This document shows, one piece after another, positions 9,104 to 16,185 of a DNA stretch of 26,217 bases. The notes beneath the pieces were generated by a model that ran no database searches, was not told where the DNA came from, and saw only the letters and a list, made by a program, of their open reading frames with translations. Made by a program: the position numbers and the translations under genes. Origin of the DNA: a virus; the IMG/VR virus record IMGVR_UViG_3300039106_000633, positions 462 to 26,678 of that record, one strand, 5' to 3'. Position 1 is the first letter of the stretch. Every line of letters begins with the position of its first letter.

Positions 9104-9120
9104 ATTTCTCCTATCCCCTT

Positions 9121-9129
9121 ATTATAGCA
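9121..9129 (-). promoter_or_regulatory. Extended -10 promoter TGCTATAAT for the large virion gene
   Basis: The minus strand reads TGCTATAAT, 17 bases before the ATG at 9103. It would separate expression of the structural gene from the B12/reductase operon ending at 9138. No -35 is evident. Confidence 0.6.
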
Positions 9130-9137
9130 GGACGAAA

Positions 9138-9632
9138 CTAGTTTTTAGGAACCCACAACTTTTCATTGCCTTTATTGTAATATCTAGCCATTACAAACAG
9201 TAAGTCGGATAGCCGATTTAAATACTTTGCAATATTTGGATTTATGTCTTTTACCTTCCAAACCTGACGCTCTGCTCTTCTGACTATGGTCCTTGCATTA
9301 TGTATGGCACCAGTAGGCAAAACAAAAGAGTGTAGCGGTTCTAAATATTCATTATAATCATCAATAATATTTTCTAAATAAGTAACCCTTGCTTCTGATA
9401 TTGTAATTGTTGGAGCACCCGAAAGTTCTGCACCTAGATCAAATAGGTCATTTTGTATTCTATCTATAATATCGTTATGAAACTCAGTTGCCATACCTAT
9501 AGCAGAGTTTGCTTCATCTACCGCTCCGATTGCCTCAATTAAGTCACTGCTTTTGTCTATGCGTTCATTGGTGGCAGTAGAGGTTTTTCCATCATCGCCA
9601 GTCTTTGTATAAATACGAGTTAAATGAACCAT
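9138..9632 (-). CDS. Cob(I)alamin adenosyltransferase, PduO type
   Basis: A 164-residue protein matching the PduO/MMAB family, which transfers adenosyl from ATP to cob(I)alamin to make adenosylcobalamin. The family marks are present in order: the ATP loop TKTGDDGKT (residues 9-17), GAVDEANSAIG (36-46), QNDLFDLGAELSG (60-72), FVLPTGAIHNART (103-115), the RRAER motif (118-122) and YLNRLSDLLFVMARYYN near the C-terminus. The length is near the shorter, complete members. A small variation is LPTG where LPGG is usual. It is the last gene of a packed operon headed by an adenosylcobalamin-dependent ribonucleotide reductase, so it most likely supplies that enzyme's cofactor. Its ATG overlaps the stop of the small upstream gene (TAATG), which implies coupled translation. 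Confidence 0.93.
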   Translation of the reverse strand: MVHLTRIYTKTGDDGKTSTATNERIDKSSDLIEAIGAVDEANSAIGMATEFHNDIIDRIQNDLFDLGAELSGAPTITISEARVTYLENIIDDYNEYLEPLHSFVLPTGAIHNARTIVRRAERQVWKVKDINPNIAKYLNRLSDLLFVMARYYNKGNEKLWVPKN

Positions 9633-9796
9633 TAGTGTCCTGTCAGAGAACGCCAGATATCAATAGTGATATCGTTTGCTACATATAGTGCAGCAAGAGT
9701 TAACATTAGTTGTACTATATTTTTTGCTGTTTTAGGTTTCTGTGTTTTTAGACGAAACTGAACAACATTGTCTGAATGCTTTTGTGCAACTTTCAT
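9632..9796 (-). CDS. 54-residue single-pass membrane protein in the B12 operon
   Basis: An ORF too short for standard cut-offs but bounded by overlaps on both sides: its ATG overlaps the upstream stop (ATGA) and its TAA overlaps the adenosyltransferase ATG (TAATG). It starts with a basic, soluble segment (MKVAQKHSDNVVQFRLK, then KPKTAKN), followed by one hydrophobic helix (IVQLMLTLAALYVAN, residues about 28-42) and a short tail DITIDIWRSLTGH. The positive N-terminus suggests that end stays in the cytoplasm. No known family was recognised. Its fixed place between a membrane-anchored transcobalamin-like protein and the adenosyltransferase suggests a part in B12 handling, or simply a small coupling gene. 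Confidence 0.75.
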   Translation of the reverse strand: MKVAQKHSDNVVQFRLKTQKPKTAKNIVQLMLTLAALYVANDITIDIWRSLTGH

Positions 9797-10248
9797 GGAA
9801 ACCTTAACTCTCCGTTAGGACCAGCCCAAACTAAACCTAGTGAATCTCCTGGGTTTAAATATTGTTGATCTATTGCTAGTTGTCCCCAACCCCATTCTTT
9901 TCTAGGAAAAGGAATCGTTTGTTTTTCTTTAATAATTAATGCCCAGTATGCTTTTTCTGGTGGCATTATTTCACAAGACTCTGCTTTTTCATCTGGCAAA
10001 TTATTTACTCTACAGACAACGCCTAGTCCATATTTTTTGGTTCCTTCTATTTCAAGGTTAGCCTTTTTTAAAACATCTAAAGCAATTGTCTTTGTAGATG
10101 CATCTATACACTTTGTTAGTTTTGTGCCATTATCTAATTGACCGTAATCAATATACAAATTAATACAATTGTTGTCTGATTTATTTATACCTTGCAACCC
10201 AATAAAAATAAGTATAAAAATTGCTAATGATATTAATATTTTTTTCAT
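9793..10248 (-). CDS. Membrane-anchored transcobalamin-like (DUF4430-type) protein
   Basis: A 151-residue protein. Residues 1-20 are a Lys-Lys start and hydrophobic stretch (KKILISLAIFILIFIGLQG) that would act as a signal or anchor. There is no lipobox. The exported part begins with a beta strand ending in DYG (residues 34-36), has ALDVLKKA (56-63), a VVCRVN strand (77-82), a Cys-x-x-x-x-Pro-Pro-x-x-x-Tyr-Trp block (C92 to W102) and a C-terminal LNPGDSLGLVW. This order resembles the DUF4430/transcobalamin C-terminal-like domain seen in secreted actinobacterial proteins. Four Cys (28, 47, 79, 92) could form disulfides outside the cell. Its place between reductase and adenosyltransferase genes supports a B12-binding role, but binding residues cannot be proven here. 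The start has a clear GGGGGT ribosome site. Confidence 0.82.
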   Translation of the reverse strand: MKKILISLAIFILIFIGLQGINKSDNNCINLYIDYGQLDNGTKLTKCIDASTKTIALDVLKKANLEIEGTKKYGLGVVCRVNNLPDEKAESCEIMPPEKAYWALIIKEKQTIPFPRKEWGWGQLAIDQQYLNPGDSLGLVWAGPNGELRFP

Positions 10249-10256
10249 TTTACCCC

Positions 10257-12287
10257 CTAGTATAATTTTATTTCACAGGCATCAGTACTGCAATATGCTT
10301 CGCCTTGTGCCTCTAAATTTTCTACTCCATCATAAATTGCAGACCAATCAATTTTTGCAATTTTTCCAACATAAGAATTATATTCTTCTTTAGTTATTTC
10401 ATTGTATGGTTGTTGTGGATAAATCTCATTACCCATAGGCAAGAATGAAACAGCCTTAAGTTCTCCTTCATGTAAATGTAGGGCAGGAGCAATATGTTTG
10501 GTTTCTGTTTCTTTGTTAAATGAAAGAGTTACGGAGACTCCATTATCAGACCAATATTTCTGGGCTGTTGCTGCCAAACCAATCTTTTCAAAAAGACTTA
10601 CATCTTTCTCAGATCTTGGATGTCCAGATGCAATTGGGAAATAAACTACTGATGTATTTGCTGATACAAAGTCTGCCTCAACTTTATACCCTGCTGCTTT
10701 AAATAAATGAACCATTGGATCTGTATTACCAAACCTTATAGCACGTAAATAAAATGCTCCTCCAGGACCCCAGTGAACTCCAGGGGTAGCGCCAGAAAGT
10801 AGTGATACAGAACCAGAAGGTTTAACAGTTGTTACTCTAATTGATTCTCTAACACATAACCATTCAGAGTATGTGTGATCATAAAATTTAATTTTCTTAT
10901 ACCCTTCGTCCATCCACTCACGTAATGCTGGCATACCTTTTGTATCTGCAAATGATGCAATACCTGTTAAAGATGTTCCAATACGACGATTACGTTGCAT
11001 AATTCCATTTGTGGTTTGCCAATGAGTTGGAACTAAAGTTACAGTTTTACCATATAAATATGCAAACTTTAATGTACGTAAAAAGTCTTCTCTGTCTTCA
11101 TGTCGATTTAAATGAACCTCTACAAGTGTGCAAAGTTCATAAGATTCTAATGGTTGTTCTGCACAAGGATTAAATCCCATTACCCGCAAATCTTTACCAT
11201 CTGCTGGATCTGCAAGACGTCCATAGTTACGAGCAACATCAAGCCATATAAATCCTGGTTCTCCATTATTTACAATTAAATCAACATACTCTTCGTAATT
11301 TGTTCCAACCTCTGCAGCAATAGAGTTGTTTGACATCCATGCCCACCCTGGTTTTTCTGGATCATAAGAGTTTCTTTCTGGAAATATTTCTGGATTTTTT
11401 AAGTTACTAAATACTTCATCTTCTGGTGTACCTAATGCTAGAGTTGCAGAACGACGAACATTTCCAGAAACTACGCAGGTACCAATCAAGTTAACAATAT
11501 CTACTATTGCACGAGAATCAAACTTCTCTCCTACTCTAGAGCCAATAACATTACAAATTCGTGTATGGAGATCCATAAGTGGCTGCGGACCGCTTGCAAC
11601 GCCTCCAAAACCTTTAATTAAAGCACCTAAAGGTCTTATTAGGCTATAGTCAAACTCTTGTATATTTTGATTTTGCCTTAAAAATGAGTTTATAAGCATT
11701 CTTACTGACTCTACCCAACCTTCACGAGTATCGGGAATTTGATAGGTAACTACTGGCTCAGTTGGTGCATAAATTAACATTTCTTTTTCTTGACCGACGG
11801 TATCAAACCCTACACCTACACCTAACATTAAAGCATCCATTACCCAGCCAAACAAGGCTCCTGGATCATTACGATCAATATCTCTTGTTGATACCATTGC
11901 ACAATTTTGAAGGGCTGCAGAGTTCTTACGCTCCATAGTCATAGGCGTACCAAATGCCCATAGACCACGTCCAGGAGGTGTCCATTTAAGGTTAAACATA
12001 CGATCATAGGCCTCTTGAGCAGACTTCTGTGCTTTATTGTCGTTCCACGGCAAACGGCTCTCTTTAGCCCAGTTTTTTTGAACTGAGTACATTCCCTCAA
12101 TTACTCGCTTACAAACCTCATACCATCTTTCTTTTGTACCGTCCTCTTTTACACGAGAATATGTTCTTATAAAGGTAATCTCTCCTAATGAGTTTGATCC
12201 TGCATCTGAAAAACCAAATGGTGGTTGTATATCTTTATATTTTGATACAAACTCATCTAATAAACGAAAAGAAAAAACCTCTGACAT
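10257..12287 (-). CDS. nrdJ: Adenosylcobalamin-dependent (class II) ribonucleoside-triphosphate reductase
   Basis: A 676-residue monomeric reductase of the Lactobacillus RTPR type, which reduces ribonucleoside triphosphates to dNTPs using adenosylcobalamin to form the thiyl radical. Key elements are in place: active-site Cys in LQNCAMVST (C129), the NPCAEQPLESYELC block with C365, E367 and C376 (the same 11-residue spacing as C408/C419 in the model enzyme), the PSGSVSLLSGATPGVH substrate motif, and the C-terminal redox pair C666/C671 (YCSTDACEI). It is about 60 residues shorter than the 739-residue model, mostly in surface regions, with no lost catalytic residue seen. A strong terminator and a promoter with inverted repeats lie upstream, so it begins an independent transcript. 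The three downstream genes are tightly joined to it. Confidence 0.95.
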   Translation of the reverse strand: MSEVFSFRLLDEFVSKYKDIQPPFGFSDAGSNSLGEITFIRTYSRVKEDGTKERWYEVCKRVIEGMYSVQKNWAKESRLPWNDNKAQKSAQEAYDRMFNLKWTPPGRGLWAFGTPMTMERKNSAALQNCAMVSTRDIDRNDPGALFGWVMDALMLGVGVGFDTVGQEKEMLIYAPTEPVVTYQIPDTREGWVESVRMLINSFLRQNQNIQEFDYSLIRPLGALIKGFGGVASGPQPLMDLHTRICNVIGSRVGEKFDSRAIVDIVNLIGTCVVSGNVRRSATLALGTPEDEVFSNLKNPEIFPERNSYDPEKPGWAWMSNNSIAAEVGTNYEEYVDLIVNNGEPGFIWLDVARNYGRLADPADGKDLRVMGFNPCAEQPLESYELCTLVEVHLNRHEDREDFLRTLKFAYLYGKTVTLVPTHWQTTNGIMQRNRRIGTSLTGIASFADTKGMPALREWMDEGYKKIKFYDHTYSEWLCVRESIRVTTVKPSGSVSLLSGATPGVHWGPGGAFYLRAIRFGNTDPMVHLFKAAGYKVEADFVSANTSVVYFPIASGHPRSEKDVSLFEKIGLAATAQKYWSDNGVSVTLSFNKETETKHIAPALHLHEGELKAVSFLPMGNEIYPQQPYNEITKEEYNSYVGKIAKIDWSAIYDGVENLEAQGEAYCSTDACEIKLY

Positions 12288-12365: not shown

Positions 12366-12396
12366 AAAAAGAAAAACACGCTTGTTTAGAGCGTGT
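12366..12396 (-). terminator. Rho-independent terminator between fibre block and reductase operon
   Basis: A perfect 7-bp stem (ACACGCT / AGCGTGT) with a 7-base loop, followed on the minus strand by TTTTTCTTTTT. It stops transcription coming from the tail-fibre genes, so the reductase operon is independently expressed. Confidence 0.88.
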
Positions 12397-12415: not shown

Positions 12416-12440
12416 AGTACTTTATTTTTTACAAAGTACT
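12416..12440. repeat. Second AGTACTTT inverted repeat
   Basis: Perfect 8-bp arms AGTACTTT (12416-12423) and AAAGTACT (12433-12440) around a 9-base A/T spacer. It overlaps the stop codon of the fibre gene and lies about 95 bp from the similar repeat over the reductase promoter. It lacks a T-run on either strand, so it is not a typical terminator. Confidence 0.6.
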
Positions 12441-13905
12441 AGCAACCAATAAGTAGTAATTCGCTAAAGGCTGCTCCTGCTGCTGGAGTTGTCCATGAAA
12501 GAGTTCCAGAGCCATTTGTTGATAAAACCTGTCCACTTGATCCATCTGATGCAGGAAGTGTCCAAATTTTGTTTGATGAAACACTTGATGGTGCTTTAAA
12601 GCCAACGTAGTGACTTGAGTCTGTATCTGCTAATCTAAGTTCTCCTGCAGCATTAATAGTAAATGACGTTGTTCCTACTGCGCTTGCAAGCGTTTTGTTT
12701 GATAATGTTTCACTACCTGCCAAAGTTGAAAAATCAGCATCTGAAAGAGCAGTATTAAATTCAGCAATGGTTCCAGTAATAGTATTTGTAGTTAAACTAA
12801 TAGATTTTCCTGAAAGTGTATCTGTAGTTGCACGACCTACAAGTGTATCTGTAGTTGTTGGGAGTGTAAGTGTTCCTGTATTAGAAATACTAGAAATTAC
12901 TGGAGATGTTAATGTTTTATTTGTAAGGGTTTCTGAAAAATCTTTAAGAGCAGTTCCATTTATATAATATGACTTTCCTGAAGCAATGTTTATGTGCTCT
13001 GATGATGTCCATGCATCTGTTGAATCTACCCAGTTAAATGTTTTATCGGTAGTTCCTTTTAATGTTATACCGCCACCATCTGCAGTATTATCTGCTGGTG
13101 ATGTTGTATCTCCAAGAACAATATTTTTATCTTCAACAACAAGATTAGTTGAGTTAATATTTGTGGTTGTTCCATTAACTGTTAAGTTGCCAGAGAGTGT
13201 TAGATCTGTTCCAGATACTGCTCCAGTAAATGTTGCTCCAGATAGTGGGGCATATGATGATAGCGCTGATGTAAAAGCAACTGTTCCAGAATCGTCAGGA
13301 AATGTTATTGTTCTATCTGCAGTTGGATCAGTAAATGAAAGAGTAGTTTCATGATCATTTGCTGTTGTACCTTCAATTACTACTGAACCATCTGAAATAG
13401 TAAGTCCAGAGATAACTGGACTTGTTAAAGTTTTACCTGTAAGAGTTTCAGTGCCAGCAATTGTAGCAAAATCAGCATCTGATATTGCTGAATTAAATTC
13501 AGCCTTTGTGCCAGTTATGGTATTTGTTGTTAATGAAATTGATTTATTTGTAAAGGTTGTTGTTGATGATGCTGTCAAATCAGAACCGATATCAGAAAGG
13601 AAGGCAACTGTACCAGATGCATCTTGAAATGTAATTGTGCGATCTGCTGTTGGATCTGTTACTTGAAGAGTAGTTTCATAAGAATCAGCAGTAGCACCTT
13701 CGAAGGTAATGCTTGTGCCAAAAGAAGGATTTATTGTAGAATTAATATCAGAAAAATAATCTAAATTTGCCCAATGATTTGTTCCATCACCGATTTTAAA
13801 CTTGTTAGTATCTGATTCCCAACCAATTTCACCAGCATTTAAAATTGGATTTGCTGATGTCCATTGTGACGCAGTTCCTCTGCGTTGTTGCATTCTGGTT
13901 GCCAT
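12439..13905 (-). CDS. Tail fibre protein with Mtd-N-like anchor and DRTITF repeats
   Basis: A 488-residue protein. Residues 1-50 (MQQRRGTASQWTSANPILNAGEIGWESDT..FKIGDGTNHW) match the N-terminal domain of the phage major tropism determinant and related fibres, which anchors fibres to the baseplate. The rest is repetitive beta sequence: two modules of ETTL..TDPTADRTITF..SGTVAF (about residues 75-110 and 180-215), NKTLTSPVIS linkers and one LTVNGTTT..VEDKNIVLG..GGGITLKG module shared with the 587-residue fibre next door. The C-terminus (SGQVLSTNGSGTLSWTTP) resembles the end of other fibre proteins. It has a TGTTATAAT promoter and an AAGGAGA ribosome site. The product is likely a receptor-binding or shaft protein. 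Confidence 0.82.
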   Translation of the reverse strand: MATRMQQRRGTASQWTSANPILNAGEIGWESDTNKFKIGDGTNHWANLDYFSDINSTINPSFGTSITFEGATADSYETTLQVTDPTADRTITFQDASGTVAFLSDIGSDLTASSTTTFTNKSISLTTNTITGTKAEFNSAISDADFATIAGTETLTGKTLTSPVISGLTISDGSVVIEGTTANDHETTLSFTDPTADRTITFPDDSGTVAFTSALSSYAPLSGATFTGAVSGTDLTLSGNLTVNGTTTNINSTNLVVEDKNIVLGDTTSPADNTADGGGITLKGTTDKTFNWVDSTDAWTSSEHINIASGKSYYINGTALKDFSETLTNKTLTSPVISSISNTGTLTLPTTTDTLVGRATTDTLSGKSISLTTNTITGTIAEFNTALSDADFSTLAGSETLSNKTLASAVGTTSFTINAAGELRLADTDSSHYVGFKAPSSVSSNKIWTLPASDGSSGQVLSTNGSGTLSWTTPAAGAAFSELLLIGC

Positions 13906-13928
13906 TATTTCTCCTTATATCTACCTAT

Positions 13929-13937
13929 ATTATAACA
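13929..13937 (-). promoter_or_regulatory. Extended -10 promoter TGTTATAAT for the Mtd-N-like fibre
   Basis: The minus strand reads TGTTATAAT in the short gap before the fibre ATG at 13905, with a good Shine-Dalgarno between. No -35 is evident. Confidence 0.55.
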
Positions 13938-13942
13938 GATAA

Positions 13943-14401
13943 TTAATTAAAATTATCTATTGCACTTCCGCCATCCCAAGTTTCATCCCAGGAAACCGTA
14001 TTATAAAAACGAGCATCCATTAAAGAACCTGGCTCATAATAATATCCTGCATCTTTAAAAATACTTACAACTAAACCACTTCCATCAATTGCTGTATCGT
14101 GAATATGGTCTTGTAATGTTTCAGCATCTTCAAGTGTTGCAATTGGAAGCCACTCGCTACTATAGTAAACATGTACTCGCTCTGTCAATGTATCAAACCA
14201 TAAATCTCCATTATCTGGAGATGCTGGCGCTGTTCCACTAACAGGAATACTTGGTGAACCTACTGCACTATCTACATATAGTTTTGTTGCTGCATGTGTA
14301 TTTTCAGTAGGAGTGGCAACTGTAACAGTTCCTCCAAAAGTACCGCCTTCGGCTACTGCAATGCCGTGCTTTACTCTAAAGTCTCTATTAGTAGTTGCCA
14401 C
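13943..14401 (-). CDS. Short tail-fibre-associated protein
   Basis: A 152-residue protein that starts with GTG. Its first residues (MATTNRDFRVKHGIAVAEGG) are shared with the start of the 587-residue fibre upstream (MATVTKDFRVKAGLVVEGS), which marks a common attachment segment. ENTHAATKLYVDSAV is a pattern widely found in fibre proteins, and APASPDNGDLWFDTLTERVHVYYSSEWLPI is a short beta domain seen at the ends of fibres. The C-terminus (TVSWDETWDGGSAIDNFN) is Trp/Asp-rich. A GAGGTCGG ribosome site precedes the GTG. It is likely a small fibre or fibre tip built from the same parts as its neighbours. No enzyme motif is visible. Confidence 0.78.
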   Translation of the reverse strand: MATTNRDFRVKHGIAVAEGGTFGGTVTVATPTENTHAATKLYVDSAVGSPSIPVSGTAPASPDNGDLWFDTLTERVHVYYSSEWLPIATLEDAETLQDHIHDTAIDGSGLVVSIFKDAGYYYEPGSLMDARFYNTVSWDETWDGGSAIDNFN

Positions 14402-14421
14402 TTCCGACCTCTATTCTTTAA

Positions 14422-16185
14422 TTATGCTTCTATGTAAGTTTTGCTTACTTTAACAGCAGTGTCTGCTGTAGTACCAGTAACCTGTAGAAGAACGTTTCCT
14501 CCGCTATATACAGCATTAGTTGTTCCAAGAACAGCATTACTAATTACATCAGCATATTCTGTTAGATAAACATTGTTTGATCCATCAATTGTAACTAGAA
14601 CTTCAATTACTTCAATATCTAAACCCTTTTTCATTTGTACTAGATATTTAGCACTTGAATATGTTGATGCTGACCATGTATCAATTGTTGTTGCTGAATC
14701 GGATGCGGTAGCAAGAGCAGTTCCAATAAGAGCATCTGGAAGTGCAATACTTGTAGCACTAGCAGCACCAAGTACTGGAGTAACAAGGGTTGGAGTATTA
14801 GCAAATACTAATGCACCTGACCCTGTTTCATCAGATATTACTCCAGCAAGTTCTGAAGAAGATGTTGCAGCAAGTGCAGAGATCTTACTTGATGTATAAA
14901 TACCGTTTGTTACTGTTGCAGCATTTCCAGTATATTCTGTTGCTGATAAAACTTGGGTTCCATTTACTTTCAATACCTTGCCAGAAGCAAGATCAATATT
15001 TTCAGAAGATGTCCAAGAATCAGTTGCATCTACCCAGTTAAGTGTCTTATCTGTAGCACCCTTGAGAGTGATACCTCCACCATCTGCACCTGCATCAGTT
15101 GGAGTTGCTACTGAACCAAGTGTAAGGTTCTTGTCATCAACTGTGATTTCTGTTGAGTTAATTGTAGTTGTTGTACCATTAACTGTTAGGTCCCCTGAAA
15201 GAACCAAAGATGTACCAGTTGCAGCACCAATATTTGGTGTTACAAGTGTTGGGGTATTAGCAAAAACAAGTGCACCAGTACCAGTCTCATCTGAAATTAC
15301 TCCAGCGAGTTCTGATGAAGAAGTTGAAGCAAAAGCATTTAACTTGTTATTTGTAAGAGCAACAGTACCTGTAGCATCTGGCAAAGTAATTGTGCGGTCT
15401 TCTGTAGGGTTTGTTACTGTAAGAGTTGTCTCATTAGCATCTGCAGATGAACCTTCAAATACTACGCTTGAGTCATTAAGAGTAAGACCAGTTACTACTG
15501 GGCTTGTAAGTGTCTTATTTGTAAGTGTCTGTGTATTTGTTGTTCCAACTACCGCACCAGTTGCACCGTGTGTTTCTGTAAGTCCTGCATGTGTTGACAC
15601 ATAACCTGAAGCAGTTGATTCTGCTGCAGTCTGTGCTGCTGCTGCTGCACCATATGCATCGTATGTATTTGCAGTTACAGAAATTGCACCAGTTGAATCT
15701 GTGTATGTAAGACCAGTTCCAACATTGTTACCAATTGCGTCCTGTGCTCTTTCATCTGTAAAGTATTTATTTGTTGATCCTTCTGAAAGGCCATCAGTGT
15801 TTGATGGAATATCAGTTGTTAGTGCTACTGTTCCACTTGCATTAGGAAGTGTAATTGTTCTGTCTGCAGTAGGATCGGTTACTTGAAGCGTTGTCTCGTA
15901 ATCATCTGCTGTTGCACCTTCAAATGTAATGCTTGAAGCAAATTCACCAACTGCTGCTGGGGCTGCCCACTTTACTCCATTTGTTGCATTTGAGTCTGCA
16001 GTGAGTACGTAGTTATCTGTTCCAACTGCAAGACGAGTTACTGCATCTGCACCAGAGGCGACTAGTAAATCACCTTTAGCATCTACTAATGCTTCTGTTA
16101 ATATATCATGTGAGTTAACGGTTGCAGTTGATCCTTCAACTACGAGTCCCGCTTTTACTCTAAAGTCTTTTGTTACGGTTGCCAT
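14422..16185 (-). CDS. Modular tail fibre protein (587 residues)
   Basis: Starts MATVTKDFRVKAGLVVEGSTATVN, then LVDAKGDLLVASGADAVTRLAVGTDNYVLTADS, a fibre motif also found in the 191-residue protein at 23079-23654. Two ITFEGATADDYETTLQVTDPTADRTITLP type modules follow, with NKTLTSPVVTGL linkers, two ASTSSSELAGVISDETG repeats and one GDLTVNGTTTTINSTEITVDDKNLTLG module closely similar to that in the 488-residue fibre. The final 100 residues (STYSSAKYLVQMKKGLDIEVIEVLVTIDG) form a distinct end domain resembling the 148-residue protein just upstream. Such repeats are known from fibres of aquatic phages. The AAGGAGAT ribosome site fixes the start. The likely role is host-surface contact. Confidence 0.82.
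   Translation of the reverse strand: MATVTKDFRVKAGLVVEGSTATVNSHDILTEALVDAKGDLLVASGADAVTRLAVGTDNYVLTADSNATNGVKWAAPAAVGEFASSITFEGATADDYETTLQVTDPTADRTITLPNASGTVALTTDIPSNTDGLSEGSTNKYFTDERAQDAIGNNVGTGLTYTDSTGAISVTANTYDAYGAAAAAQTAAESTASGYVSTHAGLTETHGATGAVVGTTNTQTLTNKTLTSPVVTGLTLNDSSVVFEGSSADANETTLTVTNPTEDRTITLPDATGTVALTNNKLNAFASTSSSELAGVISDETGTGALVFANTPTLVTPNIGAATGTSLVLSGDLTVNGTTTTINSTEITVDDKNLTLGSVATPTDAGADGGGITLKGATDKTLNWVDATDSWTSSENIDLASGKVLKVNGTQVLSATEYTGNAATVTNGIYTSSKISALAATSSSELAGVISDETGSGALVFANTPTLVTPVLGAASATSIALPDALIGTALATASDSATTIDTWSASTYSSAKYLVQMKKGLDIEVIEVLVTIDGSNNVYLTEYADVISNAVLGTTNAVYSGGNVLLQVTGTTADTAVKVSKTYIEA

Follow-up and report, generated by a model that had tools for sequence, protein, structure and literature searches.

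The operon and its two enzymes

The DNA analyzed here, denoted the window below, is a 26,217-nucleotide stretch (positions 462-26678) of the 26.7-kb IMG/VR virus record IMGVR_UViG_3300039106_000633, in which a four-gene operon sits amid head and tail genes. All four open reading frames are on the minus strand. The first encodes a monomeric class II ribonucleoside-triphosphate reductase (RTPR/NrdJ; 676 amino acids (aa); 10257..12287) of the adenosylcobalamin (AdoCbl)-dependent family, denoted RNR. It is followed by TC151 (151 aa; 9793..10248), which combines an N-terminal signal or anchor helix with a predicted exported beta-grasp domain resembling the beta domain of transcobalamin, by M54 (54 aa; 9632..9796), a single-helix membrane protein of no known family, and by a PduO-type ATP:cob(I)alamin adenosyltransferase (164 aa; 9138..9632). 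RNR and TC151 are separated by 8 nucleotides (nt), TC151 and M54 overlap by ATGA, and a single base is common to M54 and PduO (TAATG). The first-pass annotation of this DNA, made from the sequence without database searches, had described the same genes and junctions, all of which are confirmed, and had interpreted them as a possible means to capture, activate and use vitamin B12.

Both enzyme identities proposed in that annotation hold: each protein scores above the curated cut-off of its family and retains the catalytic motifs. RNR scores 350.8 bits against NCBIfam TIGR02505 (cut-off 340.05) and matches phrog_367 (E 1.5e-142) as well as the Lactobacillus leichmannii RTPR of known structure, 1l1l (phmmer E 1.2e-93). 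The catalytic cysteines, namely the N-terminal NC, the NPC thiyl site, its partner C and the C-terminal C..C, align with those of 1l1l in the segments QNCAMV, NPCAEQ, YELCTL and CSTDACEIK. PduO scores 155.7 bits against TIGR00636 (cut-off 108.45) and 166.9 bits against PF01923 (E 5.8e-49, cut-off 24), and its closest relative in the PDB is the Mycobacterium tuberculosis PduO (2g2d/6wgs; phmmer E 8e-34). The YTKTGD-G-T loop and the R..V(R)RAER and NRLSDLLF motifs are invariant or nearly so in an alignment of the short and long phage forms. Enzymes of the RTPR family require AdoCbl, and PduO enzymes produce it; by family membership, the phage reductase is predicted to depend on AdoCbl and the phage PduO to make it. 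The viral class II RTPRs described previously share the enzyme family and the catalytic cysteines with the L. leichmannii enzyme and with RNR but have been described as reliant on host B12 (PMC10547690), whereas the present reductase comes with an attached cassette that is a candidate for B12 capture and activation. The phage PduO matches the enzymes of M. tuberculosis (6wgs) and L. reuteri (3ci1) over the full length and keeps the ATP and cobalamin motifs, but its loops are shorter and its lineage forms a long branch of its own.

In the PduO tree, two phage lineages can be distinguished, both of which are paired with TC151-M54. One nests among freshwater Actinomycetota including Planktophila (support 99/97); the lineage of the window is the long separate branch, the placement of which is unsure. 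Matches of PduO to INPHARED entries labeled as 'Listeria', 'Enterococcus' and 'Salmonella' phages, mostly short unannotated records with 35-38% identity, were set aside; OR846616, OR846747, OR846749, OR848180 and similar entries are probable bacterial DNA contamination.

The first-pass annotation further assigned to the operon its own terminator and promoter. A consensus scan does locate a terminator-like hairpin plus T-run that separates RNR from the tail-fibre gene upstream of it (12376..12396, minus strand); the scan found five such patterns in the region where 2.8 would be expected, and the pattern in itself is no proof of function. The promoter claim is unproven because the candidate before RNR matches the consensus at only 9 of 12 positions and because such matches are no commoner in the region (27) than in shuffled sequences (24.4 expected). 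At the other end of the operon, a 34-nt spacer between the PduO stop codon and the next gene (9104..9137, minus strand), delimited by comparison with sites that lack the cassette, holds the extended -10-like element TGCTATAATAAGG. This element lies just ahead of a gene for a 1217-aa structural protein and is conserved in related phages whether the cassette is present or absent, which suggests that it might be the promoter of that gene. The same spacer contains an exact TGCTATAATA at 9120-9129; a late-promoter family built on TGCTATAATA was rejected, this being the only exact site, with no enrichment. Upstream, at 12439-16185 of the window, two large tail-fibre-like genes have PHROG matches in common, suggestive of an array that might have been duplicated or shuffled.

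TC151 and M54

Searches with the TC151 sequence against Pfam, NCBIfam, PDB and INPHARED gave no match, so that this protein was identified only by comparison of folds. The model, which was built with AlphaFold from 38 phage relatives, has a mean pLDDT of 81 and a pTM of 0.75, with most residues from 31 to 90 reaching a pLDDT of about 90 or higher, and shows the element order E-E-H-E-E-E-E, that is, a beta-grasp fold in which the helix is followed by an additional beta-hairpin. In VIA-align comparisons, TC151 superimposes on the beta domains of transcobalamin, haptocorrin and intrinsic factor with Z 10.5-11.3 (2.4-2.7 A over 93-98 aa) and on the bacterial protein 3u7z, which we take to be of the DUF4430 type, with Z 10.3, the next unrelated fold scoring 6.7. 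Raw Foldseek E-values are modest, with 6.8e-4 as the best. The likeness to transcobalamin noted at the first pass is therefore invisible to Pfam and clear at the level of the fold. No good match to TC151 was found in the BFVD library of viral structures and no close relative when its alignment was run against 84,980 genomes of bacteria and archaea, and none of the 38 family members matched the hidden Markov model of DUF4430 (PF14478) at E-values up to 10.

Four cysteines, the G69-T70...G74 hairpin turn and W119-G120-W121 are invariant in TC151. The stretch IEGTKKYG after the helix is nearly invariant and matches the position of the ligand-contacting hairpin, which in the SLBB superfamily follows the helix (PMC1796856). 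From the alignment, hydropathy and model, a helix is placed at residues ~4-22 and a beta-grasp domain at ~27-145; the N-terminus has two lysines followed by the hydrophobic helix and lacks a lipobox. TC151 is likely an exported domain held in the membrane. TC151 thus shares the beta-grasp fold and the extra hairpin with the beta domains of transcobalamin, intrinsic factor and haptocorrin (5np4, 2bb6, 4kki, 2pmv), which are extracellular, but is only 13-18% identical to them, lacks the alpha/alpha toroid, is predicted to be membrane-tethered and comes from a bacterial virus. The nearest parallel in domain organization is provided by the DUF4430 and other bacterial transcobalamin-like SLBB proteins (3u7z), likewise stand-alone exported beta-grasp domains, as predicted for TC151. 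In Gram-positive bacteria, such domains sit in CbiO/CbiQ operons and have been proposed to be B12 scavengers (PMC1796856); TC151, in contrast, does not match PF14478, and its neighbors in phages are RTPR and PduO rather than transporter genes.

M54 contains one helix preceded by seven basic residues and is accordingly predicted, from hydropathy and charge, to have its N-terminus inside and its C-terminus outside the cell. The C-terminal tail, WRS(L/M)(T/R)GH, is nearly invariant in the alignment. There was no match to M54 in Pfam, PHROG or NCBIfam, and a relationship with the small cobalt-transport protein CbtB (PF09489) was considered and rejected (hhalign probability 0.2, score within the range of shuffles). 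M54 is always present in complete loci that contain TC151.

Conservation of the gene set and likely hosts

The order RNR-TC151-M54-PduO is conserved across IMG/VR, in at least 59 loci; this and the following locus counts refer to non-redundant loci among the matches listed and describe the sample rather than frequencies. RNR-TC151-M54 without PduO is found in at least 5 loci, RNR followed directly by the next gene in at least 48, TC151-M54-PduO away from RNR in at least 3 (L078, L197, L262), and PduO in the replication region without TC151 in at least 5. The overlaps are kept beyond what chance would give: the one-base overlap of M54 and PduO is present at 115 of 115 loci and the 4-nt overlap of TC151 and M54 at 99 of 104, in tallies that count some contigs more than once. 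PduO, TC151 and M54 are all under purifying selection, with median ratios of nonsynonymous to synonymous substitution rates (dN/dS) of 0.05, 0.26 and 0.31, respectively. In loci such as L251 and L191, TC151 and M54 adjoin a distant RNR with 27-28% identity. The RNR of L251 matches TIGR02505 with E 2e-86 and 290.8 bits, below the cut-off of 340, against 21 bits for the class I model, and that of L191 is visibly of the same type; a 104-kb phage contig carries the trio at one position and an RNR of this type at another. Judging from these comparisons, the reductase partnered with TC151-M54 is of the RTPR type even at 27-28% identity. The linkage, for which the first-pass annotation had proposed a survey of related phages, is thus conserved over many loci and two RTPR lineages. 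Upstream of RNR-TC151-M54 in L251 (788-2230), a cytochrome P450-like gene is located on the opposite strand.

In five loci (L064, L073-L076), TC151 is missing, and a PduO with 80-88% identity, encoded within the replication region, has two small membrane proteins of 51 and 48-49 aa as neighbors. We take the 51-aa neighbor to resemble XapX/DUF1427, and the two proteins are possibly an alternative set of partners.

Genes for WhiB, which mark actinobacterial phages (PMC10202952), are present in 11 of 18 large contigs, and we infer that the hosts are freshwater Actinobacteria, Planktophila being a likely one. Freshwater acI Actinobacteria do not synthesize B12 and possess an energy-coupling factor (ECF) module behind a cobalamin riboswitch (PMC5301498). 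In Planktophila versatilis (L447:2224-6176), this operon consists of the riboswitch, a gene for an exported protein of the SCO2322 family (NF040672), which comes first, and genes for a CbiQ-like protein, a double CbiO ATPase and an ECF-S component. The SCO2322 protein, of which there is no mention in the open literature searched, may be the uncharacterised B12-capture protein of the importer. Among 61 sampled genomes of the Planktophila order, SCO2322 is encoded in 42 and PduO in all; the Planktophila RNR is also of class II. A DUF4430 protein was sought in host-like genomes and not found. One sequence titled Bifidobacterium breve (L359; CAMCXX010000001.1, isolate MiE-22jul19-59) carries genes for PduO and SCO2322 that resemble their counterparts in freshwater Actinobacteria, and its title is probably wrong.

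The first half of TC151 can be aligned to the C-terminal half of SCO2322 with a score of 28.7, compared to 12.0 +/- 2.4 for column shuffles (maximum 21.5, none of 300 as high) and 17.2 for the reversed profile, and three of the TC151 cysteines line up with SCO2322 cysteines. Like TC151, SCO2322 has four invariant cysteines and, as predicted for TC151, is exported, in its case at a putative B12 importer; however, NF040672 is not among the NCBIfam matches of TC151, and the second halves of the two proteins do not align in either order. The N-terminal YRYW and DG..GW motifs of SCO2322 are reminiscent of the final strands in the beta domain of transcobalamin, although profile comparison with hhalign gave no support to the idea that SCO2322 is a circularly permuted TC151.

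A candidate B12-supply cassette

We favor, at somewhat better than even confidence, the reading that this operon adds an accessory cassette for B12 supply to the B12-dependent reductase of the phage, combining capture, activation and use of the cofactor. TC151, anchored in the membrane through its N-terminal helix and exposing the transcobalamin-like domain outside, would capture cobalamin and pass it to the B12 importer of the cell, for which the riboswitch-linked ECF transporter found in freshwater Actinobacteria is the most likely candidate; there, TC151 would act beside or in place of the host exported protein of the SCO2322 type. M54 would be a small membrane partner that couples capture to import. 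Host enzymes would reduce the imported corrinoid, the phage PduO would adenosylate it, and AdoCbl, raised in this way during infection, would feed the phage RTPR and thereby supply deoxynucleotides (dNTPs) for phage DNA. More specifically, but only tentatively and at less than an even chance, the phage might mount TC151 together with M54, as an adaptor of a new type, on the host ECF importer and add its own adenosyltransferase, diverting B12 to the phage reductase.

Several observations weigh against this reading. The cassette is absent in 63 of the 80 closest RNR relatives, most of which show an empty site: where the next gene is in view, it begins about 35 nt after RNR, and the same TGCTATAATAAGG-bearing spacer that follows RNR in empty sites follows the cassette in occupied ones. 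The cassette is therefore accessory and not required for keeping the reductase, which evidently works in phages without it. The first-pass annotation had named a lack of linkage in related phages as counter-evidence, and this lack is partly observed, alongside the many loci that retain the linkage. On the RNR tree, the cassette label requires 8 changes, at least 5 of which are forced by well-supported branches. M54 alone accompanies RNR in at least 8 loci, and because these nest within cassette-bearing groups, the probable history is one of repeated loss of TC151 and PduO with M54 retained; a pure capture model does not predict such retention, and these loci are the main observation that it explains poorly. 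Furthermore, TC151 consists of the beta domain only, without the alpha/alpha toroid that supplies much of the B12 binding in transcobalamin; its match to SCO2322 is modest (hhalign probability 45-52%) and limited to one half; a cobalamin riboswitch ahead of the phage operon was sought in the window and not found; the assignment of hosts is indirect; and PduO is already encoded in each of the 61 genomes sampled from the Planktophila order. Since PduO and, in the genomes inspected for it, a B12-dependent RNR are already present in host-like bacteria, the cassette would boost an existing host B12 supply rather than create one, which corrects the first-pass picture of a phage that carries cofactor supply together with the consuming enzyme. 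The capture interpretation itself is partly supported: linkage and fold speak for it, optional presence speaks against it, and B12 binding, export topology, transport together with the ECF importer, the part played by M54 and a rise in AdoCbl during infection are what we infer. What the computation shows is the conserved gene order, the enzyme families with their catalytic motifs, the TC151 fold, the purifying selection, and the optional presence of the cassette with its repeated gain or loss.

Optional presence and repeated gain or loss are often seen in superinfection exclusion genes, and TC151 and M54, both probably exposed outside the cell, could serve as a decoy of host SCO2322, which TC151 resembles, altering or masking the surface complex and excluding competing phages, with PduO alone serving the reductase. 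This would leave the location of TC151-M54 next to two RTPR and two PduO lineages unexplained, and a phage with this complex as its receptor is not known here, so that we consider such a role unlikely. It is similarly improbable that TC151 binds another ligand, such as heme, another tetrapyrrole or a sugar: the superfamily does bind diverse ligands (PMC1796856), Planktophila heme auxotrophy has been reported (PMC12381374) and several freshwater Actinobacteria are heme auxotrophs, and TC151 lacks the toroid domain, but its best structural matches are all B12 carriers and one DUF4430 protein, and the neighboring enzymes use or make AdoCbl.

The M54-only loci, the constant presence of M54 in complete TC151 loci and its nearly invariant WRS-GH tail would all be accounted for if M54 were the core partner of RTPR, as a membrane tether or regulator, and TC151 and PduO later, dispensable additions unrelated to uptake. 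We regard this as doubtful, given that the M54-only loci look like reductions of the cassette-bearing groups within which they nest, that M54 travels with TC151-PduO away from RNR in L078, L197 and L262, and that most related RNRs lack M54. Mere hitchhiking of genes that landed behind RNR and persist without benefit, for which the common empty sites might speak, is very improbable in view of the purifying selection on all three genes, the conserved overlaps and the association with two RTPR lineages.

The possibility that RTPR viruses regulate or enhance B12 uptake, and with it the question of supply, was raised in a 2023 study (PMC10547690). Viral cobA, cobS and cobT have been reported as single biosynthesis genes, an adenosyltransferase among them (PMC11183165). 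The genes of the operon resemble these phage cobalamin auxiliary metabolic genes in being virus-encoded and B12-related, adenosyltransferase included, but differ in that salvage, activation and use would be brought together in a single operon that also encodes a putative surface protein. Neither a transcobalamin-like phage protein nor such a cassette was found in the literature and collections searched, most subscription papers being outside the search; the families are known, and their combination and the occurrence of a transcobalamin-like protein in phages appear to be new. RTPR viruses occur widely, and the cassette provides named candidate genes for the question of how a scarce cofactor is secured by them. 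If the proposed reading is correct, this would be the first vitamin-supply kit in a virus, in lake viruses that probably infect Actinobacteria, and would link phages to the vitamin traffic among the B12-auxotrophic freshwater Actinobacteria, which are among the most abundant lake bacteria.

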